From Owenia fusiformis (lineage: Eukaryota; Annelida; Polychaeta; Sabellida; Oweniidae): DNA of 64,000 bases. Shown here piece by piece: positions 4,001 through 51,000 of this stretch (position 1 is the stretch's first letter; every line of letters begins with the position of its first letter). Position numbers and translations under genes: made by a program. The stretch spans positions 2,583,318 through 2,647,317 of the forward strand of contig CAIIXF020000012.1 in assembly GCA_903813345.2 (NCBI GenBank), given 5' to 3'. The notes beneath the pieces are model-generated. The model saw only the letters and a program-made list of their open reading frames with translations. It was not told the origin of the DNA and did no database searches.

Positions 4001-5487
4001 TTTTGTTATGTTATTAAATCAATGTGATGATCCCAAAAATGAAACTACTTTTCATGAAAAAATATTCGGCAGTCTATGCAGATTTCATCAAGACCCTGTT
4101 GTCAATGGACCCAGCCAAATACCTGCTAATACCTGCCAAACTGAAACTCACTGATACACCCCCCTTCATAAGTATAGCAAGTGGATGTTTTCATTCACTA
4201 ACATATCATAGTCTGTCAATGTTTGAAGCTTAATTTTGTTCCTTAAATACAATATTTCAAAATATATGACAAAGATGATTTTTCCTGAATCGGCAAACAC
4301 AAATAAGTTTTTAATAAGTCATCCAAAAGGAGACTTCTGCTTGCCAAACTTATTGAGGGTAGTGTACTTAACATTAATATGCAACATATACTACTGAGCC
4401 CTACTGGATTGGGAATTGCTATATATAATATGAAACAGACTCGTCTATTGTCAAAGCTTGTGACATTTTGATGTAAAAACAGATATATCAAAAATGGCTC
4501 ATTGCATAGTAACCATCAAATTGTAGAACTGTAGCAGAAATTTCTTTACAAGTTTGAGAAAAGAATCACAACTTGTCCCCTACCCCTATGACAGAAAAGG
4601 TGGCAAATATAACAAACAAAATCAGATGTGTGTGACCATGAAAATACAAAATGTATTTGTAGTGTTTTAATTCATCAACATAAAAATACATGTATACATG
4701 TATTAGCCCAGATTAAGATTTAAAAGGTTTCAGTTTCTCACCTCATTAACTTGGATAAAATAAATAGTACCATGGGTACTGGGCTCACATAGTATAGTAA
4801 TTTCAGTCTTATTGAAAGCATGTACATTCCAAGTACACTACCATTTAATCTAAATTGATTTGTTTAAAGCTGTTCATAATGTTGTTTATAATATCATCTT
4901 TAATTTGTACAAGTTCAATGTCAGACACCACCACAACAGACAGGCGGATATCTGGAGATACTTGAATTGATGAAAAGCTAAACAAAGACACAAATAATGT
5001 TGAAAAGGTTGTTGACATAGAATTCATGACCAGTGACAAGATAAGAGAGCCACTAGAGGTGATATTATCACTCTTTGACTCTATGAGAGACTTATGCTTG
5101 GTTATTGGTGCTGTACTATTTATGCACAAGGGAACATCTCATAGTGCTATCTATGTTTGAGTGAAATAAGGCAGTGTAGTCACATCTGAAGAAAAAATAT
5201 GTTTCAGAACAGTGTTTTTGACTTTTGAAAACATCCACTGGTCACATGAGTCATTTTAAAAATAAAACATATCATAGACTTTATATTCCTCGAACATCCA
5301 ATGATAAAAAGGACCTGCAACTGACAAATCCTGCAACACAATTGGCTAACATTCATCACATGATAGCAATCCCCAGTGCATGATGGTAACAACAGACAGT
5401 TCCCTCTGCTGCTCAAAAGCTATCAAATCATATGATGTAAAGAACATACAATAAAGCTTTTTCAGTCTATGAGCCCATCAGGCAAAC
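1072..5487. other. Non-coding region, no recognisable gene
   Basis: About 4.4 kb of AT-rich DNA. Short open frames exist (for example around 1503-1901 and 4024-4233) but show no family motif, no splice-supported extension and no conserved pattern. An AATAAA-containing stretch near 3910-3990 could be a polyadenylation site for a plus-strand transcript, which would fit a long 3' UTR after the candidate exon at 934. This is not demonstrable from sequence alone. Confidence 0.4.
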
Positions 5488-27000: not shown

Positions 27001-30000
27001 CTGGACGTTTCACCCCTAGACATTTCATCCCTTAGACATTTCACCCCCTGGACACTTTACCCCCTAGATGTTTCACCCCTAGACATTTCACCCCTAGACA
27101 TTTCACCCCTTAGACATTTCACCCCCTAAACATTTCATCCCTTAGACGTTTCACCCCTTAGAAATTTCACCCCTTAGACGTTTCACCCCCTAGACATTTT
27201 AGCCTCAATTTTTTACTCCTACATATTTCATTCAAGTATTTCTCTTTATTAGAACTGAATACCCTTGGTATAAATGGTATATATTATGGTACATATTACC
27301 TATTGACAGTAACTTAAGTCAGTAACTTAAGTGAGTTTAAGTTAGATGATTTTATGTCATAGGGTTTAGCGTGGGCTTAATTAATTAAAATCAGAATTTA
27401 ATTACCAAGTGTTCCTAGTAGCATAATCAAATAACAAGTACTCTAAGTTAGAATTAACGCAGAGGCGACTAGGCAGTTACCAGTTTCACCACCAGGTGGC
27501 TCGTTCAGGTCAGATAACATGGCGGGTATAGTAGAAAGTTCCCTTTAACTTAAATTACATCTGTTTAATTTTCATATAACCTTTATACATCTAATAGTTA
27601 TGCAAATTAAAATATATACAATAAAAGAAAATGATATTTCACTTTTGTGATTTTGTAACATGGGGTTTCTGGGGAATCAACCCGAACTGGAAATCACATT
27701 TTCAAACAAATTAAATTTTCAAAGTTGAAAAGCAATTTTAATCCAAATTTCTAGATGTACAGGGTGATCCAGAAGTAACGTCAAAGACATTGTAATTTCA
27801 AAAGTATTCATCAGATCTTCATGAAATTTGGTATACATGTACCCACAACATTTCTGAGTTACCATCTCAAAGATTGGAATTCAATCATTTCATTGGTTGA
27901 AATTATGGTTGCTATAGTAACCCGATATCGCGTAACCCGGGGCAAATTGAAGAGAAACCATAACGTTTTTGTGAATTTCTCTAATTTAAAAAGTCAGTAA
28001 CATTTGAAAATGTTCATTGTTTGTTTTCTATGATTTTTATATTTGTTGCCATGGTAACAAATATGTAATAGTTGTGATGTCACAATAGGCATTCATAAAA
28101 AGCTTTCAATTTCTTTGAATTGCTTCCATCATCCATGACAAATACTAACATGACCAAGGACACTAACCCACCCAATTCAAGATGGCGCCAAGTCAGAGTA
28201 AAATAGAGCAAAGAACAAACATTAAGTTCTGTGTAAAGTTGGGGAAAGGTGTAAAAGAGACTATAAGACAGATAAAGAAGGCATATGGTAAAGCTGCCAT
28301 TGCTGAGAGAAACATTTACAGGTGGTTTAACAAGTATTCCAGTGGATATGATGAAGTGGTAGACAAGCAGCGAGGAGGCAGGCCAGTGTCATCATTCGAT
28401 GATCAAACCATCAAAGCAATTGAAGCTGATGTTATGGACAATAGGCAAATTTCTATCAGAGAATTGGCTGAAAAACACGATCTGAGCTATGGGACTGTGC
28501 AACGGATACTGACAAAGAACTGTCTGTTAAAGAAGGTGTCTGCTAAATGGGTGCCGCATGACTTGACACAGGAGCAGAAAGACTGGCGTGTTAAGGCTTC
28601 AAGGGACTTTCTTGCAAAATATCGGAGAGATGGAGATGACTTTCTTAACAAGATCATTACAAGTGATGAATCATTGCTATCATTCTACATCCCAGAGACC
28701 ACGCAACAAAGTTCATCGTGGAAACATGACAACTCCCAACACCAACCAAGCCTAAAATAGTACCAGGAATTCCACAAAAGAAACAAATGGTTGTGACATT
28801 CTTTGACATTAGAGGAATGGTGTTAACCCATTTTGTTCCCATTGGCCAGAGAATTAATGCCGTTTACATTGCAAAGGTAAGATATCATTTGTTCTAATAA
28901 TACATCATACTGTGAATTTTATTTTTAAATTAAAGTATTTAAATGTTGTTCACTGTCAATATAATTATAACTCCATGGCCATGATTCAAATCCAAATCCA
29001 ATCAATGAAACAACTGGTTTAACAACCATTAAACATTTGTTTTTCAGGTTCTGAAGCGTGATCTTCAACGTTCCCTGAGGAAAAAGCGTCCCGGACATCT
29101 GCAGCAGTTTATCTTGCATTGGGACAATGCCCCTACGCACACTGCAATCCTGACCAGCAACACAGTCCAAACACTTGGATTTCAACAACTTGAACATGCC
29201 CCTTATTCACCTGATCTTGCCCCCAGTGACTTTTATTTGTATGGGGAACTAAAAAGAAACCTTAGTGGAAATAATTTTCAATCCTGTGAGGAATTGAAAA
29301 ATGCCATAGTACTAGCCCTACAAGGAATGAGTTCTAATGGATTTAATTCTGTGTTCAAGGAATGGGTATCCAGACATGAGAAATGTGTTGCAAATGGTGG
29401 CAATTATGTAGAATGAACTATTATTAGTAACTGTGCAATAGTATGATTTATATTGTTGTGAAATAAAATGTTGAGGATATAACAATTTCAGATCTTGTTG
29501 ATATTTTGAGATTACGCATTACACGTTAAGTAATTTGCCCCGGGTTACGCGATATCGGGTTACTATAGCAACCATAATTTCAACCAATGAAATGATTGAA
29601 TTCCAATCTTTGAGATGGTAACTCAGAAATGTTGTGGGTACATGTATACCAAATTTCATGAAGATCTGATGAATACTTTTGAAATTACAACATCTTTGAC
29701 GTTACTTCTGGATCACCCTGTACTTTTACATGTAGATTTCAAATATGACATCGGAATATTTAATGGCGTAAATCAAGATTATTTCTACTCGCATCTAGTC
29801 TATTCACTTGTTTTTTCAAATTCAGTTTTCAGGGTTTTGAAGTGAGGTCCAGTCAGGAAATCTCCAATCGAAAATCTTATACAATTCTTATTAATTTCAC
29901 ATCTAATTAATCTAATTGTTTCCCATTAAACAAATGCTTTTGTATCATTATAAATACTTTTGTGCACACATGAAAAACATGTTACCTCATGTACCTACAA

Positions 30001-33000
30001 GAAGAAAAAACAATTGGATTAATTTTCTAAATCTAAAAAATAATAATGAATCGGTTTGTTGCTTTTTAATAATGCAATTGATCACAAGGGAAGGGATTAT
30101 TTAGGCAATTAAGAGACTAGCATCTTTAATCAGTGCAAAGTGCAAACTCTTTTTAAACTTATTTGTACCAATATTGTTGTGGTTTTATACACCATGACCT
30201 TTTCCAGTCAGTGTTACTTGGAAAAGAAATAAGTATACATGTACTCATGTAAAGGACGATTCTCGGTTTGGAGAACGAAGTTCATCAATCTAAATTAGCA
30301 TTATCCCTACTTCGGACAAATTAGATTTTTTTTACATAATATAGATCTGAATGTCTTCTTTTGAATAGTCATAATCTAATTTGGGTTATATTTCTAGATT
30401 ATTCGCAAAAAAATATTAGCTCAGTACACTGATGAACTTCTTTCCCCAAATCGAGACTTGTATTTTATTGTATCGGTCTAATTGAGCGTTATCCCTGCTT
30501 CAGACCAATTTGTTATTTTTACATCTTGTAGATTTAAATGTCCTCTTTTGAATATTCATAGTTTAATTTGGGTAATATTTCTATATTGTTCATGAAAAAA
30601 ATTATTAGCCCAGGAGACTGTTCTCCAAACCGAGAATCGTCATTCAGTCAAAGTTCACTATTAACCCAACCCATCACATTATACAATACACAGACTGTAT
30701 ATGAAATGTCTAGGGGGTGAAATGTCTAAGGGGTGAAACGTCTAGGGGTGAAACGTCTAAGGGATGAAAAGTCTAGGGGTGAAATGTCTAGGGGGTGAAA
30801 CATCCAGGGGGTGAAACGTCCAGGGGGTGAAACGTCTAGGGGTGAACCGTCTAGGGGTGAAATGTCCAGGGGGTGAAATGTCTAAGGGGTGAACAGTCTA
30901 GGGGTGAAACGTCCAGGGGCTGAAACATCTTGATACCATATTTTGTCATATTTCCATTGTATTTCTCTATATTTCCAGTATACGTATCTACTCACAAGAG
31001 AGCTGGAATCTCAGAGGAGGTATTTTGAAGAAAAGCTTGCAGTTGTGGAGTCAAAGGCACAAGAACAGGTTAGGTTTTGAAAGTTATATTAACTAGTATA
31101 TAATTAAGCTATTTTGAAGAGAAGCTTGCAGTTGTGGAGTCAAAGGCACAGGAACAGGTGAGGTTTTAAAAGTTATATTAACCAGTATATAATTAAGCTA
31201 TTTTGAAGAGAAGCTTGCAGTTGTGGAGTCAAAGGCACAGGAACAGGTGATGTTTTCAATGTTATATTAACCAGTATGTAATTAAGCTATTTTGAAGAGA
31301 AGCTTGCAGTTGTGGAGTCAAAGGCACAAGAACAGGTTAGGTTTTGAAAGTTATATTAACCAGTATATAATTAAGATATTTTGAAGAGAAGCTTGCAATT
31401 GTGGAGTCAAAGGCACAAGAACAGGTTAGGTTTTGAAAGTTATATTAACCAGTATGTAATTAAGCTATTTTGAAGAGAAGCTTGCAATTGTGGAGTCAAA
31501 GGCACAAGAACAGGTGATGTTTTCAATGTTGTATTAACCAGTATATAATTAAGATATTTTGAAGAGAAGCTTGCAGTTGTGGAGTCAAAGGCACAAGAAC
31601 AGGTGATGTTTTGAATGTTATATTAACCAGTATGTAATTAAGATATTTTGAAGAGAAGCTTGCAGTTGTGGAGTCAAAGGCACAAGAACAGGTTAGGTTT
31701 TCAATGTTATATTAACTAGTATATAATTAAGATATTTTGAAGAGAAGCTTGCAGTTGTGGAGTCAAAGGCACAAGAACAGGTGATGTTTTGAATGTTATA
31801 TTAACCAGTATGTAATTAAGATATTTTGAAGAGAAGCTTGCAGTTGTGGAGTCAAAGGCACAAGAACAGGTTAGGTTTTCAATGTTATATTAACTAGTAT
31901 ATAATTAAGATATTTTGAAGAGAAGCTTGCAGTTGTGGAGTCAAAGGCACAAGAACAGGTTAGGTTTTCAATGTTATATTAACTAGTATATAATTAAGAT
32001 ATTTTGAAGAGAAGCTTGCAGTTGTGGAGTCAAAGGCACAGGAACAGGTGATGTTTTGAATGTTGTATTAACCAGTATGTAATTAAGCTATTTTGAAGAA
32101 AAGCTTGCAGTTGTGGAGTCAAAGGCACAGGAACAGGTGAGGTTTTCAATGTTATATTAACCAGTATGTAATTAAGCTATTTTGAAGAAAAGCTTGCAGT
32201 TGTGGAGTCAAAGGCACAAGAACAGGTGATGTTTTGAATGTTATATTAACCAGTATGTAATTAAGATATTTTGAAGAGAAGCTTGCAGTTGTGGAGTCAA
32301 AGGCACAAGAACAGGTTAGGTTTTCAATGTTGTATTAACCAGTATATAATTAAGATATTTTGAAGAGAAGCTTGCAGTTGTGGAGTCAAAGGCACAAGAA
32401 CAGGTTAGGTTTTCAATGTTGTATTAACCAGTATATAATTAAGATATTTTGAAGAGAAGCTTGCAGTTGTGGAGTCAAAGGCACAAGAACATGTTAGGTT
32501 TTCAATGTTATATTAACCAGTATGTAATTAAGATATTTTGAAGAAAAGCTTGCAGTTGTGGAGTCAAAGGCACAAGAACAGGTGATGTTTTCAATGTTGT
32601 ATTAACCAGTATATAATTAAGATATTTTGAAGAGAAGCTTGCAGTTGTGGAGTCAAAGGCACAGGAACAGGTTAGATTTTGAAAGTTATATTAACCAGTA
32701 TATAATTAAGATATTTTGAAGAGAAGCTTGCAGTTGTGGAGTCAAAGGCACAGGAACAGGTTAGATTTTGAAAGTTATATTAACCAGTATATAACTAAGA
32801 TATTTTGAAGAGAAGCTTGCAGTTGTGGAGTCAAAGGCACAGGAACAGGTTAGATTTTGAAAGTTATATTAACCAGTATATAATTAAGATATTTTGAAGA
32901 GAAGCTTGCAGTTGTGGAGTCAAAGGCACAGGAACAGGTGAGGTTTTCAATGTTATATTAACCAGTATGTAATTAAGCTATTTTGAAGAGAAGCTTACAG

Positions 33001-36000
33001 TTGTGGAGTCAAAGGCACAGGAACAGGTGATGTTTTCAATGTTGTATTAACCAGTATGTAATTAAGATATTTTGAAGAGAAGCTTGCAGTTGTGGAGTCA
33101 AAGGCACAGGAACAGGTTAGGTTTTGAAAGTTGTATTAACCAGTATATAATTAAGATATTTTGAAGAGAAGCTTGCAGTTGTGGAGTCAAAGGCACAGGA
33201 ACAGGTGAGGTTTTCAATGTTATATTAACCAGTATGTAATTAAGCTATTTTGAAGAGAAGCTTACAGTTGTGGAGTCAAAGGCACAGGAACAGGTGATGT
33301 TTTCAATGTTGTATTAACCAGTATGTAATTAAGATATTTTGAAGAGAAGCTTGCAGTTGTGGAGTCAAAGGCACAGGAACAGGTTAGGTTTTCAATGTTA
33401 TATTAACCAGTATATAATTAAGCTATTTTGAAGAGAAGCTTGCAATTGTGGAGTCAAAGGCACAGGAACAGGTTAGGTTTTCAATGTTATATTAACCAGT
33501 ATGTAATTAAGATATTTTGAAGAGAAGCTTGCAGTTGTGGAGTCAAAGGCACAAGAACAGGTGAGGTTTTCAATGTTATATTAACCAGTATATAATTAAG
33601 ATATTTTGAAGAGAAGCTTGCAGTTGTGGAGTCAAAGGCACAAGAACAGGTGATGTTTTGAATGTTATATTAACCAGTATGTAATTAAGATATTTTGAAG
33701 AGAAGCTTGCAATTGTGGAGTCAAAGGCACAAGAACAGGTTAGGTTTTGAAAGTTATATTAACCAGTATATAATTAAGATATTTTGAAGAGAAGCTTGCA
33801 GTTGTGGAGTCAAAGGCACAGGAACAGGTTAGGTTTTCAATGTTGTATTAACCAGTATATAATTAAGATATTTTGAAGAAAAGCTTGCAGTTGTGGAGTC
33901 AAAGGCACAGGAACAGGTTAGGTTTTGAAAGTTGTATTAACCAGTATATAATTAAGATATTTTGAAGAGAAGCTTGCAGTTGTGGAGTCAAAGGCACAAG
34001 AACAGGTTAGGTTTTGAAAGTTGTATTAACCAGTATGTAATTAAGATATTTTGAAGAGAAGCTTGCAGTTGTGGAGTCAAAGGCACAGGAACAGGTTAGG
34101 TTTTCAATGTTATATTAACCAGTATATAATTAAGATATTTTGAAGAAAAGCTTGCAGTTGTGGAGTCAAAGGCACAGGAACATGTTAGGTTTTCAATGTT
34201 GTATTAACCAGTATATAATTAAGATATTTTGAAGAGAAGCTTGCAGTTGTGGAGTCAAAGGCACAGGAACATGTTAGGTTTTCAATGTTGTATTAACCAG
34301 TATATAATTAAGATATTTTGAAGAGAAGCTTGCAGTTGTGGAGTCAAAGGCACAAGAACAGGTGAGGTTTTGAATGTTATATTAACCAGTATATAATTAA
34401 GATATTTTGAAGAAAAGCTTGCAGTTGTGGAGTCAAAGGCACAGGAACAGGTTAGGTTTTCAATGTTATATTAACTAAGTATATAATTAAGATGTTTTGA
34501 AGAAAAGCTTGCAGTTGTGGAGTCAAAGGCACAAGAACAGTTGAGGTTTTCAATGTTATATTAACTAAGTATATAATTAAGATGTTTTGAAGAAAAGCTT
34601 GCAGTTGTGGAGTCAAAGGCACAAGAACAGGTGAGGTTTTGAAAGTTATATTAACTAGTATATAATTAAGCTATTTTGAAGAGAAGCTTGCAGTTGTGGA
34701 GTCAAAGGCACAGGACGGGTTAGGTTTTGAAAGTTGTATTAACCAGTATATAATTAAGCTATTTTGAAGAGAAGCTTGCAGTTGTGGAGTCAAAGGCACA
34801 AGAACAGGTTAGGTTTTGAAAGTTGTATTAACCAGTATGTAATTAAGCTATTTTGAAGAGAAGCTTGCAGTTGTGGAGTCAAAGGCACAAGAACAGGTTA
34901 GGTTTTGAAAGTTATATTAACTAGTATATAATTAAGCTATTTTGAAGAGAAGCTTGCAGTTGTGGAGTCAAAGGCACAGGACGGGTTAGGTTTTGAAAGT
35001 TGTATTAACCAGTATATAATTAAGCTATTTTGAAGAGAAGCTTGCAGTTGTGGAGTCAAAGGCACAGGAACAGGTGAGGTTTTCAATGTTATATTAACCA
35101 GTATGTAATTAAGCTATTTTGAAGAAAAGCTTGCAGTTGTGGAGTCAAAGGCACAGGAACAGGTTAGGTTTTCAATGTTATATTAACCAGTATATAATTA
35201 AGATGTTTTGAAGAGAAGCTTGCAATTGTGGAGTCAAAGGCACAGGAACAGGTGATGTTTTCAATGTTGTATTAACCAGTATATAATTAAGATATTTTGA
35301 AGAGAAGCTTGCAGTTGTGGAGTCAAAGGCACAGGAACAGGTGATGTTTTCAATGTTATATTAACCAGTATGTAATTAAGCTATTTTGAAGAAAAGCTTG
35401 CAGTTGTGGAGTCAAAGGCACAAGAACAGGTGATGTTTTCAATGTTATATTAACCAGTATGTAATTAAGCTATTTTGAAGAAAAGCTTGCAGTTGTGGAG
35501 TCAAAGGCACAAGAACAGGTGATGTTTTCAATGTTGTATTAACCAGTATATAATTAAGATATTTTGAAGAGAAGCTTGCAGTTGTGGAGTCAAAGGCACA
35601 GGAACAGGTGAGGTTTTCAATGTTATATTAACCAGTATGTAATTAAGCTATTTTGAAGAGAAGCTTGCAGTTGTGGAGTCAAAGGCACAGGACGGGTTAG
35701 GTTTTGAAAGTTGTATTAACCAGTATGTAATTAAGCTATTTTGAAGAGAAGCTTGCAGTTGTGGAGTCAAAGGCACAAGAACAGGTTAGGTTTTGAAAGT
35801 TATATTAACTAGTATATAATTAAGCTATTTTGAAGAGAAGCTTGCAGTTGTGGAGTCAAAGGCACAGGAACAGGTTAGGTTTTCAATGTTATATTAACCA
35901 GTATGTAATTAAGCTATTTTGAAGAGAAGCTTGCAGTTGTGGAGTCAAAGGCACAGGAACAGGTGAGGTTTTCAATGTTATATTAACCAGTATGTAATTA

Positions 36001-39000
36001 AGCTATTTTGAAGAGAAGCTTGCAGTTGTGGAGTCAAAGGCACAGGACGGGTTAGGTTTTGAAAGTTGTATTAACCAGTATGTAATTAAGCTATTTTGAA
36101 GAGAAGCTTGCAGTTGTGGAGTCAAAGGCACATGAACAGGTTAGGTTTTGAAAGTTGTATTAACCAGTATATAATTAAGATGTTTTGAAGAGAAGCTTGC
36201 AGTTGTGGAGTCAAAGGCACAGGAACAGGTTAGGTTTTCAATGTTATATTAACTAAGTATATAATTAAGATGTTTTGAAGAGAAGCTTGCAGTTGTGGAG
36301 TCAAAGGCACAGGAACAGGTTAGGTTTTCAATGTTATATTAACCAGTATATATTTAAGCTATTTTGAAGAGAAGCTTGCAATTGTGGAGTCAAAGGCACA
36401 GGAACAGGTTAGGTTTTGAAAGTTGTATTAACCAGTATATAATTAAGATGTTTTGAAGAAAAGCTTGCAATTGTGGAGTCAAAGGCACAAGAACAGGTGA
36501 GGTTTTCAATGTTGTATTAACCAGTATATAATTAAGATATTTTGAAGAGAAGCTTGCAGTTGTGGAGTCAAAGGCACAAGAACAGGTGATGTTTTGAATG
36601 TTATATTAACCAGTATGTAATTAAGCTATTTTGAAGAAAAGCTTGCAGTTGTGGAGTCAAAGGCACAAGAACAGGTGATGTTTTCAATGTTATATTAACC
36701 AGTATGTAATTAAGCTATTTTGAAGAAAAGCTTGCAGTTGTGGAGTCAAAGGCACAAGAACAGGTGATGTTTTGAATGTTATATTAACCAGTATGTAATT
36801 AAGATATTTTGAAGAGAAGCTTGCAATTGTGGAGTCAAAGGCACAGGAACAGGTGAGGTTTTGAATGTTATATTAACCAGTATATAATTAAGATATTTTG
36901 AAGAGAAGCTTGCAGTTGTGGAGTCAAAGGCACAGGAACAGGTTAGGTTTTCAATGTTGTATTAACCAGTATGTAATTAAGATATTTTGAAGAGAAGCTT
37001 GCAGTTGTGGAGTCAAAGGCACAAGAACAGGTGAGGTTTTCAATGTTATATTAACCAGTATGTAATTAAGCTATTTTGAAGAAAAGCTTGCAGTTGTGGA
37101 GTCAAAGGCACAGGAACAGGTGATGTTTTGAAAGTTGTATTAACCAGTATGTAATTAAGCTATTTTGAAGAAAAGCTTGCAGTTGTGGAGTCAAAGGCAC
37201 AGGAACATGTTAGGTTTTGAATGTTATATTAACCAGTATATAATTAAGATATTTTGAAGAAAAGCTTGCAGTTGTGGAGTCAAAGGCACAGGAACAGGTG
37301 AGGTTTTCAATGTTATATTAACCAGTATATAATTAAGATGTTTTGAAGAAAAGCTTGCAGTTGTGGAGTCAAAGGCACAGGAACAGGTTAGGTTTTGAAA
37401 GTTGTATTAACCAGTATATAATTAAGATATTTTGAAGAAAAGCTTGCAGTTGTGGAGTCAAAGGCACAGGAACAGGTTAGGTTTTCAATGTTATATTAAC
37501 TAAGTATATAATTAAGATGTTTTGAAGAAAAGCTTGCAGTTGTGGAGTCAAAGGCACAAGAACAGGTGAGGTTTTCAATGTTATATTAACCAGTATATAA
37601 TTAAGATGTTTTGAAGAAAAGCTTGCAGTTGTGGAGTCAAAGGCACAAGAACAGGTGAGGTTTTCAATGTTGTATTAACCAGTATGTAATTAAGATATTT
37701 TGAAGAGAAGCTTGCAGTTGTGGAGTCAAAGGCACAGGAACAGGTGATGTTTTGAAAGTTGTATTAACCAGTATGTAATTAAGATATTTTGAAGAGAAGC
37801 TTGCAGTTGTGGAGTCAAAGGCACAGGAACAGGTGATGTTTTCAATGTTATATTAACCAGTATGTAATTAAGCTATTTTGAAGAAAAGCTTGCAGTTGTG
37901 GAGTCAAAGGCACAAGAACAGGTTAGGTTTTCAATGTTGTATTAACCAGTATGTAATTAAGATATTTTGAAGAGAAGCTTGCAGTTGTGGATTCAAAGGC
38001 ACAAGAACAGGTTAGGTTTTCAATGTTATATTAACTAGTATATAATTAAGATATTTTGAAGAGAAGCTTGCAGTTGTGGAGTCAAAGGCACAAGAACAGG
38101 TGAGGTTTTCAATGTTATATTAACCAGTATGTAATTAAGCTATTTTGAAGAGAAGCTTGCAGTTGTGGAGTCAAAGGCACAAGAACAGGTTAGGTTTTCA
38201 ATGTTATATTAACCAGTATATAATTAAGATATTTTGAAGAGAAGCTTGCAGTTGTGGAGTCAAAGGCACAAGAACAGGTGATGTTTTGAATGTTATATTA
38301 ACCAGTATATAATTAAGATATTTTGAAGAGAAGCTTGCAGTTGTGGAGTCAAAGGCACAGGAACAGGTGATGTTTTCAATGTTATATTAACCAGTATATA
38401 ATTAAGATATTTTGAAGAGAAGCTTGCAGTTGTGGAGTCAAAGGCACAGGAACAGGTGAGGTTTTCAATGTTATATTAACCAGTATATAATTAAGCTATT
38501 TTGAAGAGAAGCTTGCAGTTGTGGAGTCAAAGGCACAGGAACAGGTGATGTTTTGAATGTTGTATTAACCAGTATATAATTAAGATATTTTGAAGAGAAG
38601 CTTGCAATTGTGGAGTCAAAGGCACAGGAACAGGTGATGTTTTCAATGTTATATTAACCAGTATGTAATTAAGATATTTTGAAGAGAAGCTTGCAGTTGT
38701 GGAGTCAAAGGCACAAGAACAGGTTAGGTTTTCAATGTTATATTAACCAGTATGTAATTAAGCTATTTTGAAGAGAAGCTTGCAGTTGTGGATTCAAAGG
38801 TACAAGAACAGGTTAGGTTTTCAATGTTATATTAACCAGTATATAATTAAGATATTTTGAAGAAAAGCTTGCAGTTGTGGAGTCAAAGGCACAAGAACAG
38901 GTAAGGTTTTCAATGTTGTATTAACCAGTATGTAATTAAGATATTTTGAAGAGAAGCTTGCAGTTGTGGAGTCAAAGGCACAGGAACAGGTTAGGTTTTC

Positions 39001-42000
39001 AATGTTGTATTAACCAGTATGTAATTAAGATATTTTGAAGAGAAGCTTGCAGTTGTGGAGTCAAAGGCACAAGAACAGGTAAGGTTTTCAATGTTGTATT
39101 AACCAGTATGTAATTAAGATATTTTGAAGAGAAGCTTGCAGTTGTGGATTCAAAGGCACAAGAACAGGTTAGGTTTTCAATGTTATATTAACCAGTATGT
39201 AATTAAGATATTTTGAAGAGAAGCTTGCAGTTGTGGATTCAAAGGCACAAGAACAGGTTAGGTTTTCAATGTTATATTTAGAGGTTATGTCACTATGACG
39301 TGAAATATGCCTGAGTTCTCCCAATATAGGCCGACCTTGGGAGGCTCTATATTTGGGCAAGAACGAAGGCATATTTCACGTCATAGTGACATAACTGATG
39401 TATAACATGCCTTTGTTCCCATGGTTACTTTGTATCAATGACGCGACGTCATGATATTATCATGGTTATTAAAGAAATCTAATATCAAAACGAGGTAAGC
39501 GGGCTATATCGGGGTAATCGGGCAATATCGGTGGATATAGCTCGCTAACTTTCCCATTGACTTCCATACAAATGCTTCGCTAGGTATGTAATACTAACCA
39601 GTATGTAATTAAGATATTTTGAAGAGAAGCTTGCAGTTGTGGAGTCAAAGGCACAGGAACAGGTTAGGTTTTCAATGTTGTATTAACCAGTATATAATTA
39701 AGATATTTTGAAGAGAAGCTTGCAGTTGTGGAGTCAAAGGCACAAGAACAGGTTAGGTTTTCAATGTTATATTAACCAGTATATAATTAAGCTATTTTGA
39801 AGAGAAGCTTGCAGTTGTGGAGTCAAAGGCACAAGAACAGGTAAGGTTTTCAATGTTATATTAACCAGTATGTAATTAAGCTATTTTGAAGAAAAGCTTG
39901 CAGTTGTGGAGTCAAAGGCACAGGAACAGGTGATGTTTTCAATGTTGTATTAACCAGTATGTAATTAAGATATTTTGAAGAGAAGCTTGCAGTTGTGGAG
40001 TCAAAGGCACAAGAACAGGTGATGTTTTCAATGTTGTATTAACCAGTATGTAATTAAGCTATTTTGAAGAGAAGCTTGCAGTTGTGGAGTCAAAGGCACA
40101 GGAACAGGTAAGGTTTTGAAAGTTGTATTAACCAGTATGTAATTAAGATATTTTGAAGAAAAGCTTGCAGTTGTGGAGTCAAAGGCACAGGAACAGGTGA
40201 TGTTTTCAATGTTGTATTAACCAGTATGTAATTAAGATATTTTGAAGAGAAGCTTGCAGTTGTGGAGTCAAAGGCACAAGAACAGGTTAGGTTTTCAATG
40301 TTATATTAACCAGTATGTAGTTAAGCTATTTTGAAGAGAAGCTTGCAGTTGTGGAGTCAAAGGCACAGGAACAGGTGAGGTTTTCAATGTTGTATTAACC
40401 AGTATATAATTAAGATATTTTGAAGAGAAGCTTGCTGTTGTGGAGTCAAAGGCACAAGAACAGGTTAGGTTTTCAATGTTATATTAACCAGTATGTAATT
40501 AAGATATTTTGAAGAGAAGCTTGCAGTTGTGGATTCAAAGGCACAAGAACAGGTAAGGTTTTCAATGTTGTATTAACCAGTATGTAATTAAGATATTTTG
40601 AAGAGAAGCTTGCAGTTGTGGAGTCAAAGGCACAAGAACAGGTTAGGTTTTGAAAGTTATATTAACCAGTATGTAATTAAGCTATTTTGAAGAAAAGCTT
40701 GCAGTTGTGGAGTCAAAGGCACAAGAACAGGTTAGGTTTTCAATGTTGTATTAACCAGTATGTAATTAAGCTATTTTGAAGAAAAGCTTGCAGTTGTGGA
40801 GTCAAAGGCACAGGAACAGGTGATGTTTTGAATGTTATATTAACCAGTATATAATTAAGATATTTTGAAGAGAAGCTTGCAGTTGTGGAGTCAAAGGCAC
40901 AAGAACAGGTGATGTTTTCAATGTTGTATTAACCAGTATGTAATTAAGCTATTTTGAAGAGAAGCTTGCAGTTGTGGAGTCAAAGGCACAGGAACAGGTT
41001 AGGTTTTCAATGTTGTATTAACCAGTATATAATTAAGATATTTTGAAGAGAAGCTTGCAGTTGTGGAGTCAAAGGCACAAGAACAGGTTAGGTTTTCAAT
41101 GTTGTATTAACCAGTATATAATTAAGATGTTTTGAAGAAAAGCTTGCAGTTGTGGAGTCAAAGGCACAGGAACAGGTGATGTTTTCAATGTTATATTAAC
41201 CAGTATGTAATTAAGCTATTTTGAAGAGAAGCTTGCAGTTGTGGAGTCAAAGGCACAGGAACAGGTTAGGTTTTGAAAGTTGTATTAACCAGTATATAAT
41301 TAAGATATTTTGAAGAAAAGCTTGCAGTTGTGGAGTCAAAGGCACAGGAACATGTTAGGTTTTCAATGTTATATTAACCAGTATATAATTAAGATGTTTT
41401 GAAGAAAAGCTTGCAGTTGTGGAGTCAAAGGCACAGGACGGGTGAGGTTTTCAATGTTGTATTAACCAGTATATAATTAAGCTATTTTGAAGAGAAGCTT
41501 GCAGTTGTGGAGTCAAAGGCACAGGAACAGGTGAGGTTTTCAATGTTATATTAACCAGTATATAATTAAGATATTTTGAAGAGAAGCTTGCAGTTGTGGA
41601 GTCAAAGGCACAGGAACAGGTTAGGTTTTGAAAGTTGTATTAACCAGTATGTAATTAAGATATTTTGAAGAGAAGCTTGCAGTTGTGGAGTCAAAGGCAC
41701 AAGAACAGGTTAGGTTTTCAATGTTATATTAACCAGTATGTAATTAAGATATTTTGAAGAGAAGCTTGCAGTTGTGGAGTCAAAGGCACAGGAACAGGTG
41801 ATGTTTTCAATGTTATATTAACCAGTATGTAATTAAGATATTTTGAAGAGAAGCTTGCAGTTGTGGAGTCAAAGGCACAGGAACAGGTGATGTTTTCAAT
41901 GTTATATTAACCAGTATATAATTAAGATGTTTTGAAGAAAAGCTTGCAGTTGTGGAGTCAAAGGCACAGGAACAGGTGATGTTTTCAATGTTATATTAAC

Positions 42001-45000
42001 CAGTATATAATTAAGATATTTTGAAGAGAAGCTTGCAGTTGTGGAGTCAAAGGCACAGGAACAGGTGATGTTTTCAATGTTATATTAACCAGTATGTAAT
42101 TAAGCTATTTTGAAGAAAAGCTTGCAGTTGTGGAGTCAAAGGCACAGGAACAGGTGATGTTTTCAATGTTATATTAACCAGTATGTAATTAAGCTATTTT
42201 GAAGAGAAGCTTGCAGTTGTGGAGTCAAAGGCACAGGAACAGGTGAGGTTTTCAATGTTGTATTAACCAGTATGTAATTAAGCTATTTTGAAGAAAAGCT
42301 TGCAGTTGTGGAGTCAAAGGCACAAGAACAGGTTAGGTTTTCAATGTTATATTAACCAGTATGTAATTAAGCTATTTTGAAGAAAAGCTTGCAGTTGTGG
42401 AGTCAAAGGCACAAGAACAGGTGAGGTTTTCAATGTTGTATTAACCAGTATATAATTAAGCTATTTTGAAGAGAAGCTTGCAGTTGTGGAGTCAAAGGCA
42501 CAGGACGGGTTAGGTTTTGAAAGTTGTATTAACCAGTATGTAATTAAGCTATTTTGAAGAGAAGCTTGCAGTTGTGGAGTCAAAGGCACAGGAACAGGTT
42601 AGGTTTTGAAAGTTGTATTAACCAGTATGTAATTAAGCTATTTTGAAGAGAAGCTTGCAGTTGTGGAGTCAAAGGCACAAGAACAGGTTAGGTTTTCAAT
42701 GTTATATTAACCAGTATGTAATTAAGCTATTTTGAAGAAAAGCTTGCAGTTGTGGAGTCAAAGGCACAGGAACAGGTGATGTTTTGAAAGTTGTATTAAC
42801 CAGTATGTAATTAAGCTATTTTGAAGAAAAGCTTGCAGTTGTGGAGTCAAAGGCACAAGAACAGGTGAGGTTTTCAATGTTATATTAACCAGTATGTAAT
42901 TAAGCTATTTTGAAGAAAAGCTTGCAGTTGTGGAGTCAAAGGCACAGGAACATGTTAGGTTTTGAATGTTATATTAACCAGTATATAATTAAGATGTTTT
43001 GAAGAGAAGCTTGCAGTTGTGGAGTCAAAGGCACAGGAACTGGTTAGGTTTTCAATGTTGTATTAACCAGTATGTAATTAAGCTATTTTGAAGAGAAGCT
43101 TGCAGTTGTGGAGTCAAAGGCACAAGAACAGGTGATGTTTTCAATGTTATATTAACCAGTATATAATTAAGATATTTTGAAGAGAAGCTTGCAGTTGTGG
43201 AGTCAAAGGCACAAGAACAGGTGAGGTTTTCAATGTTATATTAACCAGTATATAATTAAGCTATTTTGAAGAGAAGCTTGCAGTTGTGGAGTCAAAGGCA
43301 CAGGACGGGTTAGGTTTTGAAAGTTGTATTAACCAGTATATAATTAAGATGTTTTGAAGAGAAGCTTGCAGTTGTGGAGTCAAAGGCACAGGAACAGGTG
43401 ATGTTTTGAAAGTTGTATTTACCAGTATATAATTAAGATATTTTGAAGAGAAGCTTGCAATTGTGGAGTCAAAGGCACAGGAACAGGTGATGTTTTGAAA
43501 GTTGTATTAACCAGTATATAATTAAGATATTTTGAAGAGAAGCTTGCAATTGTGGAGTCAAAGGCACAGGAACAGGTGAGGTTTTCAATGTTGTATTAAC
43601 CAGTATATAATTAAGATATTTTGAAGAGAAGCTTGCAGTTGTGGAGTCAAAGGCACAAGAACAGGTAAGGTTTTCAATGTTGTATTAACCAGTATATAAT
43701 TAAGATATTTTGAAGAGAAGCTTGCAGTTGTGGAGTCAAAGGCACAGGAACATGTTAGGTTTTCAATGTTGTATTAACCAGTATGTAATTAAGATATTTT
43801 GAAGAGAAGCTTGCAGTTGTGGAGTCAAAGGCACAAGAACAGGTTAGGTTTTCAATGTTGTATTAACCAGTATGTAATTAAGCTATTTTGAAGAAAAGCT
43901 TGCAGTTGTGGAGTCAAAGGCACAGGAACAGGTGAGGTTTTCAATGTTATATTAACCAGTATATAATTAAGCTATTTTGAAGAGAAGCTTGCAGTTGTGG
44001 AGTCAAAGGCACAGGACGGGTGAGGTTTTCAATGTTGTATTAACCAGTATATAACTAAGATATTTTGAAGAAAAGCTTGCAGTTGTGGAGTCAAAGGCAC
44101 AGGACGGGTGAGGTTTTCAATGTTGTATTAACCAGTATATAACTAAGATATTTTGAAGAAAAGCTTGCAATTGTGGAGTCAAAGGCACAAGAACAGGTTA
44201 GGTTTTGAAAGTTGTATTAACCAGTATGTAATTAAGCTATTTTGAAGAGAAGCTTGCAGTTGTGGAGTCAAAGGCACAGGAACAGGTTAGGTTTTGAAAG
44301 TTGTATTAACCAGTATATAATTAAGCTATTTTGAAGAGAAGCTTGCAGTTGTGGAGTCAAAGGCACAGGAACAGGTTAGGTTTTCAATGTTATATTAACC
44401 AGTATGTAATTAAGATATTTTGAAGAGAAGCTTGCAGTTGTGGAGTCAAAGGCACAGGAACAGGTTAGGTTTTGAAAGTTGTATTAACCAGTATATAATT
44501 AAGCTATTTTGAAGAGAAGCTTGCAGTTGTGGAGTCAAAGGCACAGGAACAGGTTAGGTTTTCAATGTTATATTAACTAAGTATATAATTAAGATATTTT
44601 GAAGAGAAGCTTGCAGTTGTGGAGTCAAAGGCACAAGAACAGGTGATGTTTTCAATGTTATATTAACCAGTATATAATTAAGATATTTTGAAGAAAAGCT
44701 TGCAGTTGTGGAGTCAAAGGCACAAGAACAGGTGATGTTTTCAATGTTATATTAACCAGTATGTAATTAAGATATTTTGAAGAGAAGCTTGCAGTTGTGG
44801 AGTCAAAGGCACAGGAACAGGTTAGGTTTTGAAAGTTGTATTAACCAGTATATAATTAAGCTATTTTGAAGAGAAGCTTGCAGTTGTGGAGTCAAAGGCA
44901 CAGGAACAGGTTAGGTTTTGAAAGTTGTATTAACCAGTATATAATTAAGATATTTTGAAGAGAAGCTTGCAGTTGTGGAGTCAAAGGCACAGGAACAGGT

Positions 45001-48000
45001 TAGGTTTTGAAAGTTGTATTAACCAGTATATAATTAAGCTATTTTGAAGAAAAGCTTGCAATTGTGGAGTCAAAGGCACAGGAACAGGTTAGGTTTTCAA
45101 TGTTGTATTAACCAGTATATAATTAAGATATTTTGAAGAGAAGCTTGCAATTGTGGAGTCAAAGGCACAAGAACAGGTGAGGTTTTCAATGTTATATTAA
45201 CCAGTATATAATTAAGCTATTTTGAAGAGAAGCTTGCAGTTGTGGAGTCAAAGGCACAGGAACAGGTTAGGTTTTCAATGTTATATTAACTAAGTATATA
45301 ATTAAGCTATTTTGAAGAAAAGCTTGCAGTTGTGGAGTCAAAGGCACAAGAACAGGTTAGGTTTTGAAAGTTGTATTAACCAGTATGTAATTAAGCTATT
45401 TTGAAGAGAAGCTTGCAGTTGTGGAGTCAAAGGCACAGGAACAGGTTAGGTTTTGAAAGTTGTATTAACCAGTATATAATTAAGCTATTTTGAAGAGAAG
45501 CTTGCAGTTGTGGAGTCAAAGGCACAGGAACAGGTTAGGTTTTCAATGTTGTATTAACCAGTATATAATTAAGATATTTTGAAGAGAAGCTTGCAGTTGT
45601 GGAGTCAAAGGCACAGGAAAAGGTTAGGTTTTCAATGTTATATTAACTAAGTATATAATTAAGATGTTTTGAAGAGAAGCTTGCAGTTGTGGAGTCAAAG
45701 GCACATGAACAGGTTAGGTTTTGAATGTTATATTAACCAGTATATAATTAAGATATTTTGAAGAGAAGCTTACAGTTGTGGAGTCAAAGGCACAGGAACA
45801 GGTGATGTTTTCAATGTTGTATTAACCAGTATATAATTAAGATATTTTGAAGAGAAGCTTGCAGTTGTGGAGTCAAAGGCACAGGAACAGGTTAGGTTTT
45901 GAAAGTTGTATTAACCAGTATGTAATTAAGCTATTTTGAAGAAAAGCTTGCAGTTGTGGAGTCAAAGGCACAAGAACAGGTTAGGTTTTCAATGTTGTAT
46001 TAACCAGTATGTAATTAAGATATTTTGAAGAGAAGCTTGCAGTTGTGGAGTCAAAGGCACAAGAACAGGTTAGGTTTTCAATGTTGTATTAACAAGTATG
46101 TAATTAAGCTATTTTGAAGAGAAGCTTGCAGTTGTGGAGTCAAAGGCACAAGAACAGGTTAGGTTTTCAATGTTGTATTAACCAGTATGTAATTAAGCTA
46201 TTTTGAAGAGAAGCTTGCAGTAGTGGAGTCAAAGGCACAGGAACAGGTGAGGTTTTCAATGTTGTATTAACCAGTATATAATTAAGATATTTTGAAGAGA
46301 AGCTTGCAGTTGTGGAGTCAAAGGCACAAGAACAGGTTAGGTTTTGAAAGTTGTATTAACCAGTATATAATTAAGATATTTTGAAGAGAAGCTTGCAGTT
46401 GTGGAGTCAAAGGCACAGGAACAGGTTAGGTTTTGAAAGTTGTATTAACCAGTATATAATTAAGCTATTTTGAAGAGAAGCTTGCAGTTGTGGAGTCAAA
46501 GGCACAAGAACAGGTTAGGTTTTGAAAGTTGTATTAACCAGTATATAATTAAGCTATTTTGAAGAGAAGCTTGCAGTTGTGGAGTCAAAGGCACAGGACG
46601 GGTTAGGTTTTGAAAGTTGTATTAACCAGTATATAATTAAGCTATTTTGAAGAGAAGCTTGCAGTTGTGGAGTCAAAGGCACAGGACGGGTTAGGTTTTG
46701 AAAGTTGTATTAACCAGTATATAATTAAGATATTTTGAAGAGAAGCTTGCAATTGTGGAGTCAAAGGCACAGGAACAGGTGAGGTTTTCAATGTTATATT
46801 AACCAGTATATAATTAAGATATTTTGAAGAAAAGCTTGCAGTTGTGGAGTCAAAGGCACAGGAACAGGTGAGGTTTTCAATGTTATATTAACCAGTATGT
46901 AATTAAGCTATTTTAAAGAAAAGCTTGCAGTTGTGGAGTCAAAGGCACAGGAACAGGTTAGGTTTTGAAAGTTGTATTAACCAGTATGTAATTAAGCTAT
47001 TTTGAAGAAAAGCTTGCAGTTGTGGAGTCAAAGGCACAAGAACAGGTGAGGTTTTCAATGTTGTATTAACCAGTATATAATTAAGATATTTTGAAGAGAA
47101 GCTTGCAGTAGTGGAGTCAAAGGCACAGGAACAGGTGAGGTTTTCAATGTTGTATTAACCAGTATGTAATTAAGCTATTTTGAAGAAAAGCTTGCAGTTG
47201 TGGAGTCAAAGGCACAGGAACAGGTGATGTTTTGAATGTTATATTAACCAGTATGTAATTAAGATATTTTGAAGAAAAGTTTGCAGTTGTGGAGTCAAAG
47301 GCACAAGAACAGGTGAGGTTTTCAATGTTATATTAACCAGTATATAATTAAGCTATTTTGAAGAGAAGCTTGCAGTTGTGGAGTCAAAGGCACAGGAACA
47401 GGTTAGGTTTTGAAAGTTGTATTAACCAGTATATAATTAAGATATTTTGAAGAAAAGCTTGCAGTTGTGGAGTCAAAGGCACAGGAACATGTTAGGTTTT
47501 CAATGTTATATTAACCAGTATATAATTAAGATGTTTTGAAGAGAAGCTTGCAGTTGTGGAGTCAAAGGCACAGGAACAGGTGAGGTTTTCAATGTTATAT
47601 TAACCAGTATATAATTAAGATATTTTGAAGAAAAGCTTGCAGTTGTGGAGTCAAAGGCACAGGACAGGTTAGGTTTTCAATGTTATATTAACCAGTATAT
47701 AATTAAGATGTTTTGAAGAGAAGCTTGCAGTTGTGGAGTCAAAGGCACAGGAACAGGTGATGTTTTCAATGTTATATTAACCAGTATGTAATTAAGATAT
47801 TTTGAAGAAAAGCTTGCAGTTGTGGAGTCAAAGGCACAAGAACAGGTTAGGTTTTGAAAGTTGTATTAACCAGTATATAATTAAGATATTTTGAAGAGAA
47901 GCTTGCAATTGTGGAGTCAAAGGCACAAGAACAGGTGAGGTTTTCAATGTTATATTAACCAGTATATAATTAAGCTATTTTGAAGAGAAGCTTGCAGTTG

Positions 48001-51000
48001 TGGAGTCAAAGGCACAGGAACAGGTTAGGTTTTGAAAGTTGTATTAACCAGTATGTAATTAAGCTATTTTGAAGAGAAGCTTGCAGTTGTGGAGTCAAAG
48101 GCACAGGAACATGTTAGGTTTTGAATGTTATATTAACCAGTATATAATTAAGATATTTTGAAGAAAAGCTTGCAGTTGTGGAGTCAAAGGCACAGGAACA
48201 GGTGAGGTTTTCAATGTTATATTAACCAGTATGTAATTAAGCTATTTTGAAGAGAAGCTTGCAGTTGTGGAGTCAAAGGCACAGGAACAGGTTAGATTTT
48301 GAAAGTTATATTAACCAGTATATAATTAAGATATTTTGAAGAAAAGCTTGCAGTTGTGGAGTCAAAGGCACAGGAACAGGTGAGGTTTTCAATGTTATAT
48401 TAACCAGTATATAATTAAGATATTTTGAAGAAAAGCTTGCAGTTGTGGAGTCAAAGGCACAGGAACAGGTGAGGTTTTCAATGTTATATTAACCAGTATG
48501 TAATTAAGCTATTTTGAAGAGAAGCTTGCAGTTGTGGAGTCAAAGGCACAAGAACAGGTTAGATTTTGAAAGTTATATTAACCAGTATATAATTAAGCTA
48601 TTTTGAAGAGAAGCTTGCAGTTGTGGAGTCAAAGGCACAGGAACAGGTGAGGTTTTCAATGTTATATTAACCAGTATATAATTAAGATATTTTGAAGAAA
48701 AGCTTGCAGTTGTGGAGTCAAAGGCACAGGAACAGGTTAGGTTTTGAAAGTTATATTAACCAGTATGTAATTAAGCTATTTTGAAGAAAAGCTTGCAGTT
48801 TTGGAGTCAAAGGCACAGGAACAGGTGAGGTTTTGAAAGTTATATTAACCAGTATGTAATTAAGCTATTTTGAAGAGAAGCTTGCAGTTGTGGAGTCAAA
48901 GGCACAAGAACAGGTTAGGTTTTGAAAGTTATATTAACCAGTATGTAATTAAGCTATTTTGAAGAGAAGCTTGCAGTTGTGGAGTCAAAGGCACAAGAAC
49001 AGGTTAGATTTTGAAAGTTATATTAACCAGTATGTAATTAAGCTATTTTGAAGAGAAGCTTGCAGTTGTGGAGTCAAAGGCACAGGAACAGGTGAGGTTT
49101 TCAATGTTATATTAACCAGTATATAATTAAGATATTTTGAAGAGAAGCTTGCAGTTGTGGAGTCAAAGGCACAGGAACAGGTGAGGTTTTGAAAGTTATA
49201 TTAACCAGTATGTAATTAAGCTATTTTGAAGAGAAGCTTGCAGTTGTGGAGTCAAAGGCACAGGAACAGGTGAGGTTTTGAAAGTTATATTAACCAGTAT
49301 ATAATTAAGATATTTTGAAGAAAAGCTTGCAGTTGTGGAGTCAAAGGCACAGGAACAGGTGAGGTTTTGAAAGTTATATTAACCAGTATATAATTAAGCT
49401 ATTTTGAAGAGAAGCTTGCAGTTGTGGAGTCAAAGGCACAGGAACAGGTGATGTTTTCAATGTTATATTAACCAGTATATAATTAAGATATTTTGAAGAG
49501 AAGCTTGCAGTTGTGGAGTCAAAGGCACAAGAACAGGTGAGGTTTTGAAAGTTGTATTAACCAGTATATAATTAAGCTATTTTGAAGAGAAGCTTGCAAT
49601 TGTGGAGTCAAAGGCACAGGAACAGGTGAGGTTTTCAATGTTATATTAACCAGTATATAATTAAGCTATTTTGAAGAGAAGCTTGCAGTTGTGGAGTCAA
49701 AGGCACAGGAACAGGTGATGTTTTCAATGTTATATTTACCAGTATGTAATTAAGCTATTTTGAAGAAAGCTTACAGTTGTGGAGTCAAAGGCACAGGAAC
49801 AGGTTAGGTTTTGAAAGTTGTATTAACCAGTATGTAATTAAGCTATTTTGAAGAGAAGCTTGCAGTTGTGGAGTCAAAGGCACAGGAACAGGTGAGGTTT
49901 TGAAAGTTATATTAACCAGTATATAATTAAGATATTTTGAAGAGAAGCTTGCAGTTGTGGAGTCAAAGGCACAAGAACAGGTGAGGTTTTGAAAGTTATA
50001 TTAACCAGTATGTAATTAAGATATTTTGAAGAAAAGCTTGCAGTTGTGGAGTCAAAGGCACAGGAACAGGTGAGGTTTTCAATGTTATATTAACCAGTAT
50101 GTAATTAAGCTATTTTGAAGAGAAGCTTGCAGTTGTGGAGTCAAAGGCACAGGAACAGGTTAGATTTTGAAAGTTATATTAACCAGTATATAATTAAGAT
50201 ATTTTGAAGAAAAGCTTGCAGTTGTGGAGTCAAAGGCACAAGAACAGGTTAGATTTTGAAAGTTATATTAACCAGTATATAATTAAGCTATTTTGAAGAG
50301 AAGCTTGCAGTTGTGGAGTCAAAGGCACAAGAACAGGTTAGATTTTGAAAGTTATATTAACCAGTATGTAATTAAGCTATTTTGAAGAGAAGCTTGCAGT
50401 TGTGGAGTCAAAGGCACAGGAACAGGTGAGGTTTTCAATGTTATATCAACCAGTCAATTTGTAATGTATTTTCAGTTGGAGGATATCCTTTATCCTAGAT
50501 TTGAACCTTTGAGGCTTTCTCTTTGATATATATGGATTGATGTTTTTTTTACTTCAGGAATTTCTATTTGTGATATTTAGGGTAATAGTTGTTTTATGAT
50601 TCTTGGTAAAAGTGTTAATTTGTTAGACACTCATTGGGTAGTGTTTTTTGAATTTTTGGTACCTTGAATAACTAATCTAGTCAAGCTGATATTATAGAGC
50701 TTTTATTTTGGTAGCTTTTCCATCTATTAATCAAAACCATCATTCTCGAAAATGGTAAAATATGCCTGGAATATTATAGTTCAACAAGTTAAACCCAATT
50801 TCCAGCTTAATTTATTATCCTTGCAATACATTCATGTTAGTGAACTTTGGATGGGTCCAATATCCCTCTGTAATATTGGGCTACGTAAGAAATGTCAGAT
50901 AATAAATAAGACCCAGACCGAAGGTTTGATTTGTTGAACTAGGAATATTATTGCATTCACTTCATAAATTTGATAGGTTCCCTGAGTCTGTTAGAGACCA

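Follow-up and report, generated by a model that had tools for sequence, protein, structure and literature searches.

How is a gene spliced when one of its introns begins with about 215 copies of the gene's own splice donor? This question is raised by the BRAP gene of the annelid Owenia fusiformis, which lies in a window of 64,000 nucleotides (nt) on contig CAIIXF020000012.1 (C12; positions 2,583,318 to 2,647,317 of the forward strand, assembly GCA_903813345.2). Coordinates below are those of the window unless another contig is named. A first-pass annotation had described here a 19-kb satellite made from the 5' splice site of BRAP exon 13. Our analysis of the window, together with searches of the whole genome (498 Mb in 525 contigs), leads to an account that we consider reasonably probable: short duplications straddled exon borders, the spare junctions were amplified at both ends of intron 13, and the resulting arrays are tolerated through a choice of splice sites on the side of the complete exon, with BRAP as the extreme case.

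To establish the anatomy of the gene, BRAP exons were located by tblastn, using a human BRAP sequence as the query. The gene occupies positions 18075-60825 of the + strand and has 17 coding exons with the BRAP2, RING and zf-UBP domains (Pfam E-values of 4.3e-30 for BRAP2, 1.3e-8 for zf-RING_2 and 1.5e-23 for zf-UBP). A genome-wide search for BRAP2 found two matches, both of them inside this gene. When joined by script, exons 1-16 gave 707 codons free of stops, and every intron between them has GT-AG ends; exon 17 and the stop codon (60730-60825), which stood outside the scripted join, are in phase by length. From this open and conserved frame we infer that the exon 13 donor is probably a live splice junction. 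The 16 introns are each at least 290 nt long, and intron 13, which ends at exon 14 (58752), measures 27,683 bp.

The 5' end of intron 13 is taken up by the array (Table 1). An anchor search located 214 units with 213 spacings, of which 192 are exactly 89 bp, 12 are 88 bp, 7 are 90 bp and two are longer. Inspection by eye showed that one long gap hides a further unit at about 49756, missed by the search owing to a deletion within the anchor, and that the other is a single unit split by an insert. Within each unit, the final 48 nt of exon 13 lead through the donor into about 41 nt of intron, and the donor GT is kept in 213 of the 214 aligned units. Thus, the first-pass description was accurate as to the number of copies (about 215, close to the Tandem Repeats Finder (TRF) count in Table 1), the composition of the unit, the exon numbering, and the place of the first unit at the end of exon 13 itself. 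The array is likewise built from, and attached to, BRAP's own junction: a 30-base core of the unit has 128 exact matches genome-wide, and all 128 are inside the window. The same confinement holds for the acceptor-side core described below (10 of 10 in the window), which rules out dispersal of either unit elsewhere in the genome as far as exact core matches are concerned. The head-to-tail and highly similar units (mean pairwise identity 0.94 over the 214 aligned units) are as in satellite or minisatellite DNA, albeit not as in a dispersed satellite family, since exact core copies are confined to the window. Nor is it a tandem exon duplication, because the unit has a donor but no acceptor and includes just 48 of the 90 nt that make up exon 13. 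An array of this size excludes a chance origin.

Duplication of splice junctions is not limited to the donor side, nor to this intron. Near the 3' end of intron 13 stand two arrays of a 74-bp unit that comprises the end of the intron, the exon 14 acceptor and the first part of exon 14. Together they hold 33 copies (22 + 11), 31 of which keep the AG, and the last copy of array B is the real start of exon 14. Like the 89-bp unit, the 74-bp unit falls short of a tandem exon duplication, as it contains the acceptor and only part of the exon. The two arrays follow the two halves (overall 51939-57901) of a segmental duplication of about 3.8 kb, each half being followed by one array. Open frames on the - strand of intron 13 (52082-53056 and 55900-56852) are doubled with this duplication; they presumably resemble a C-type lectin gene, and Pfam gave no match for the two pieces of them that were tested. 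Two more BRAP junctions are duplicated, bringing the affected exons to 9, 13, 14 and 16. Exon 9 (23009-23091) carries part of the RING domain, and its end is the first of four donor-junction copies, the second being the most diverged. At exon 16, the acceptor junction and most of the exon are present twice; the upstream copy is without the acceptor AG and meets a stop. This last duplication was found by repeat search and is missing from the TRF list.

Table 1. Coordinates of BRAP exons 13 and 14, of the duplicated junctions and of related features in the window, followed by junction arrays in other genes (MITE, miniature inverted-repeat transposable element; USP, ubiquitin hydrolase)
Feature	Position	Strand	Description
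Exon 13	30979-31068	+	90 nt; last 48 nt are unit 1 of the 89-bp array
Exon 14	58752-58865	+	114 nt; frame continues directly from exon 13
Exon 13 donor-junction array	31021-50454	+	period 89 bp, 217.9 copies, 88% matches (TRF)
Insert in one array unit	39280-39590 (limits approximate, by eye)		palindromic, MITE-like arm pair
Acceptor-junction array A	54126-55752	+	74 bp x 22 (TRF); AG kept in 20/22
Acceptor-junction array B	57971-58802	+	74 bp x 11 (TRF); AG kept in 11/11
Intron 13 segmental duplication (about 3.8 kb)	51939-54075 and 55759-57901		spacing 3796-3848 (repeat search)
Exon 9 donor-junction array	23031-23377	+	4 copies, spaced 91, 88 and 88 bp (TRF, repeat search, sequence)
Exon 16 acceptor junction and most of exon	59991-60197	+	2 copies 115 bp apart (repeat search, sequence)
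L053, USP			donor junction; 98 bp x 6.9 at 98%
L048, USP	C9:8170398-8173571	- (gene)	acceptor junction; 150 bp x at least 10.8, to locus end
L061, kinesin			acceptor junction; 159 bp x 18
L081, katanin-like			acceptor junction; 118 bp, at least 13 copies, running off the locus
L077, VPS4-like			donor junction; 45 bp x 24.7

To see what use of an inner site would do to the message, we translated one neighbouring donor and one neighbouring acceptor. Reading past donor 1 to donor 2 adds VRF and then a stop, in keeping with the earlier statement that stops bar translation of the array, and use of the next acceptor upstream (58678) instead of the real one adds a stop after the exon 14 sequence. With stops on both sides, normal BRAP mRNA needs the first donor and the last acceptor. 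These stops, and periods of 89 and 74 that are not multiples of three, bear on the idea that several copies are used in BRAP, as alternative donors and acceptors giving isoforms or deliberately unproductive mRNA. We regard this as improbable, even though the sites are intact, many are stronger than donor 1, and the VPS4-like array of Table 1, with its period of 45 nt, leaves the frame open through the first copies.

In the account that we prefer, a short tandem duplication straddled the border between exon 13 and intron 13, leaving what the anatomy displays: a complete exon 13, then a spare 3' end and donor within the intron. The word TATTTT occurs at the joint between units, in the exon, and in the intron just past the last unit, each time at an equal distance from a common word; the 12 nt between TATTTT and the common word match poorly by eye. 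The shared TATTTT would fit a founding joint formed at a short common word. The spare donor copies would have multiplied to about 215 while exchanging short stretches, as their variants suggest. The other end of the intron went the same way, with the spare copies lying upstream of a complete exon 14. The arrays would survive if the machinery takes the sites that are nearest each other across each complete exon, which means donor 1 for exon 13 and the final acceptor of array B for exon 14. The choice of sites would thereby be accounted for by proximity across the exon, and a choice on the exon side would make junction arrays tolerable. Such exon definition would be favoured by long flanking introns, and the arrays add further to intron length.

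Junction arrays were also found in five other genes, namely two ubiquitin hydrolases, a kinesin, and two genes that we take, from their motifs, to be katanin-like and VPS4-like. Together with the acceptor arrays and the additional BRAP junctions, these run counter to the notion that the array is peculiar to one junction of one gene. In the donor arrays (BRAP exon 9, L053 and L077) the complete exon comes first, and in the acceptor arrays (BRAP exon 14, L048, L061 and L081) it comes last. The kinesin illustrates this arrangement: only the last copy continues into the rest of the exon, and the spare copies meet a stop after KNKPVAL or, by eye, KNKPVVL. The 150-bp period of L048 is a multiple of three and the frame is open over the copies in the locus, so this array could be a coding repeat. 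BRAP may therefore be the extreme of a process acting on many genes, five others having been found and the frequency being roughly estimated as follows.

To estimate how often exon junctions are caught up in arrays, we surveyed control loci at the DNA level. The set comprised 60 kinase and USP loci, less L058-L060, which overlap as copies of L048 (leaving 57), and all 22 AAA loci; an array was counted if it reached at least 5 bp into the profile match in the 57-locus set, and anything within 30 bp was listed for the AAA loci. Six loci of the 57-locus set had TRF arrays touching the match (L040, L043, L048, L050, L053 and L054). When read at the sequence level, L048 and L053 proved to be junction arrays, and L040 an intronic 22- or 42-bp array reaching up to an acceptor. 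The matched intervals of L043, L050 and L054, introns included, contain stops, on which basis their arrays were taken as intronic. At L017, an array ends 29 bp before the kinase match. The final count was four junction arrays in 79 loci (kinase 0/30, USP 2/27, AAA 2/22), the kinesin array having come from a separate profile screen outside these 79.

That screen and its companions were coarse, since repeated profile ranges were picked by eye, without sequence, among the places listed, and arrays with short units, for example L053 and L077, escape them. The candidates scored were 124 of 877 kinases, 122 of 218 kinesins, 65 of 210 myosins, 19 of 154 AAA, 47 of 149 DEAD, 98 of 98 USP and 76 of 76 Cpn60. 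Among 144 kinesin places listed, one cluster (18 places) is the junction array; the kinases gave one pair among 144 places listed, the myosins one cluster of 12 spaced matches among 92 places listed, and USP one cluster of 11 among 73 places listed. No cluster was seen among 60 Cpn60 places or 52 DEAD places listed. The myosin cluster and the kinase pair appear to be other forms of exon repetition. At C9:37986009-37994334, 12 matches to myosin motor residues of about 18-84 lie on one strand, 0.3-1.9 kb apart, arranged as in a large cluster of alternative exons. At L062 (C10:2256500-2257600), two diverged tandem exons, 178 bp apart, encode the same kinase segment, presumably GSK3-like, and look like an alternative pair.

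The history of the 89-bp array was examined through variation among its units. The 214 aligned units include 150 distinct sequences, so the array is not a run of exact copies. Identity between units is nearly flat with distance (0.948 at a lag of 1, 0.944 at 3 and 0.938 at 39), which does not bear out the three-unit higher-order repeat suggested by a 267-bp row in the TRF output. Variants are shared across the array with little spatial order, and linkage among the nine common variant sites is nearly nil beyond about 5 bp (mean r2 of 0.35 at 1-5 bp, 3 pairs; 0.047 at 6-10 bp, 6 pairs; and about 0.02 at 11-40 bp, 20 pairs). With regard to selection on the exon half of the unit, the 48 exon columns contained 11 rare variants and the 42 intron columns 20. 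In a toy model whose starting point was a random arrangement of two kinds of unit, the unlinked state was reached in 0 of 24 runs with unequal exchange and in 30 of 30 with short-tract conversion; as the starting state is arbitrary, the model serves to rank the two processes and no more. Variants that are shared and unlinked would thus fit short-tract conversion between units. Array A, unlike the 89-bp array, has strong spatial order, in the 150-bp USP array some linkage persists to about 40 bp, and in the 3-kb kinesin array linkage is weak beyond 20 bp (mean r2 of about 0.07, n=18). These other arrays say little on linkage because they are short.

Variants that are nearly unlinked are also what random consensus calls would give, and the array might then be an artefact in which the assembler inflated a short real duplication or scrambled its variants. 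We think this quite improbable. The insert within one unit is of a dispersed kind: an exact search of the genome with its terminal arm gave 692 matches (347 forward and 345 reverse), and the arms are 84 bp apart in most of the 100 places listed. This insert and the 150 distinct unit sequences speak in favour of a real array; moreover, arrays of the same kind, just 0.7 to 3 kb long, occur in other genes, and the kinesin example shares the weak linkage.

Whether proximity across the exon could decide the choice of sites was then weighed against what the sites themselves offer. In human data, sites nearest across the exon are favoured when both flanking introns are long (PMC9225289), and all 16 BRAP introns exceed the 250-nt short-intron limit given in that study. 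Several findings weigh against our account. Donor 1 (CAG/GTTAGG, the slash marking the exon border) is surpassed by others: CAG/GTGAGG or CAG/GTAAGG is found in 56 of the 214 units, including unit 2, with U1 pairing energies of -11.6 or -11.5 kcal/mol as against -8.0 kcal/mol for donor 1, which rules out superior strength of donor 1. Its predicted RNA accessibility (0.399) is close to the mean of 0.397 and is exceeded by 72 of 211 others, so that in the 212 of 214 donors located and folded no difference was seen that would hide the inner donors by RNA structure. Since 56 of 214 donors pair better and accessibility is alike, sequence fails to explain the choice of donor 1. According to the same study, the stronger human 5' site is dominant in 86% of events, and human acceptors lean upstream, a tendency that long introns only reduce (PMC9225289); the latter speaks against use of the last acceptor in BRAP. 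Furthermore, recurrent mutation or errors in the assembly consensus could also have produced the unlinked variants, and junctions are less often array-covered than the flanks would predict, as set out below.

The surplus donors might instead be functional, about 213 GT donors gathering U1 small nuclear ribonucleoprotein and so protecting the 27.7-kb intron from premature cleavage, or tuning BRAP splicing. The near-complete retention of GT and the 56 units that pair with U1 more strongly than the functional donor are in line with this idea. We nevertheless give it very little chance, because the variable columns include donor positions -2, -1, +3, +5 and +6, which gives no hint that donors are maintained beyond the overall similarity of units, and because the acceptor arrays are left unexplained.

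The controls also allow the question of whether splicing matters at all. Tandem arrays with a period of at least 30 cover 6.1% of 171 kb of flank in the 57 loci and 8.6% of 66 kb in the 22 loci, and arrays cover 4 of 158 control exon edges against about 10.7 expected from flank bases, a rough count because the edges are those of profile matches, as distinct from mapped exon ends, and because long open frames make up several of the kinase loci. These figures do not support the idea that arrays preferentially hit junctions. Both figures suit ordinary tandem-repeat growth that fell on junctions by chance, splicing and exon borders being irrelevant. We consider this unlikely, though a serious contender, and as to where duplications arise it may hold. 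On the other side, 4 of 32 internal BRAP junctions are duplicated compared with 4 of 158 control edges (Fisher p = 0.029), a comparison in which BRAP was chosen for its array and the counts rest on slightly differing methods, as exon 16 is not in the TRF list. Whatever their origin, units that hold exon sequence and splice sites, at four BRAP junctions and in five other genes, bear on splicing. Taken at face value, junctions are rarer in arrays than flank bases, so tolerance would be incomplete; most simply, arrays can be read as frequent throughout, with junctions tolerating them in part but not in full.

Taken further, the counts raise the tentative idea, which may well prove wrong, that junction arrays are present at a few per cent of coding exons, which follow a near-strict exon-side rule, with the first donor or the last acceptor taken among equal or stronger copies. 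If so, junction arrays would be a natural, genome-wide experiment in splice-site choice and a route of intron growth. To judge from the further genes, introns may grow repeatedly through tandem duplications that cross exon borders, in which case arrays would be expected next to exons whose flanking introns are long. BRAP, whose normal mRNA would need a single donor out of about 215 and a single acceptor out of 33, tests site choice without a sequence cue: use of the outer sites would mean that U1 pairing counts for far less than proximity across the exon, and if they are not used, BRAP must be heavily mis-spliced in O. fusiformis.

Several other features of the window are recorded here. Repeats of 21 bp with TTTCCAG motifs lie directly upstream of the exon 12 and exon 13 acceptors (26071-26242 and 30948-30990; TRF). 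One 16-bp repeat forms two arrays in opposite orientation, about 3.5 kb apart (26890-27199 and 30702-30930; TRF), which flank a frame with a Mos1-transposase helix-turn-helix domain (28167-28757; Pfam). A neighbouring + strand gene (5473-9889) is beta-lactamase-like, with a Pfam match at 7557-7844; it contains a 69-bp duplication (5655-5797) that does not close the frame, as well as two exon-like frames (8626-8925 and 8929-9201) that are similar and lie next to each other.

Among the top results of longer literature lists, we did not find splice-junction satellites described, which is not proof of their absence. Intronic minisatellites, or variable number tandem repeats, are head-to-tail units of tens of bp within an intron; the BRAP unit differs in having coding sequence and a splice site, and in that its first copy is part of an exon. 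Tandem exon duplications and mutually exclusive exons likewise repeat exon sequence in tandem within a gene, whereas BRAP copies one junction and part of an exon, the 89-bp unit being without the exon's acceptor. The BRAP array is an amplified form of tandem duplication across an exon border, for which a single-duplication case is in print: in the potato RNA-dependent RNA polymerase gene, one duplication crossed an intron-exon border, copied a splice site together with flanking exon sequence, and yielded a new intron (PMC4974935). Here, by comparison, copy numbers reach about 215, and donors as well as acceptors are affected in several genes of one genome. The giant introns of the Drosophila Y chromosome resemble intron 13 in consisting largely of tandem repeats; these are megabases of simple satellite and are transcribed (PMC6508621), whereas the BRAP array has the gene's own splice junction as the unit and spans 19 kb. 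Also comparable are the experiments of Reed and Maniatis, as described in PMC9225289, in which splice sites competed in cis, as they would in BRAP, and the inner site, nearest its partner across the intron, was favoured. BRAP presents that competition naturally and about 215-fold, with a normal product that needs the outer sites.

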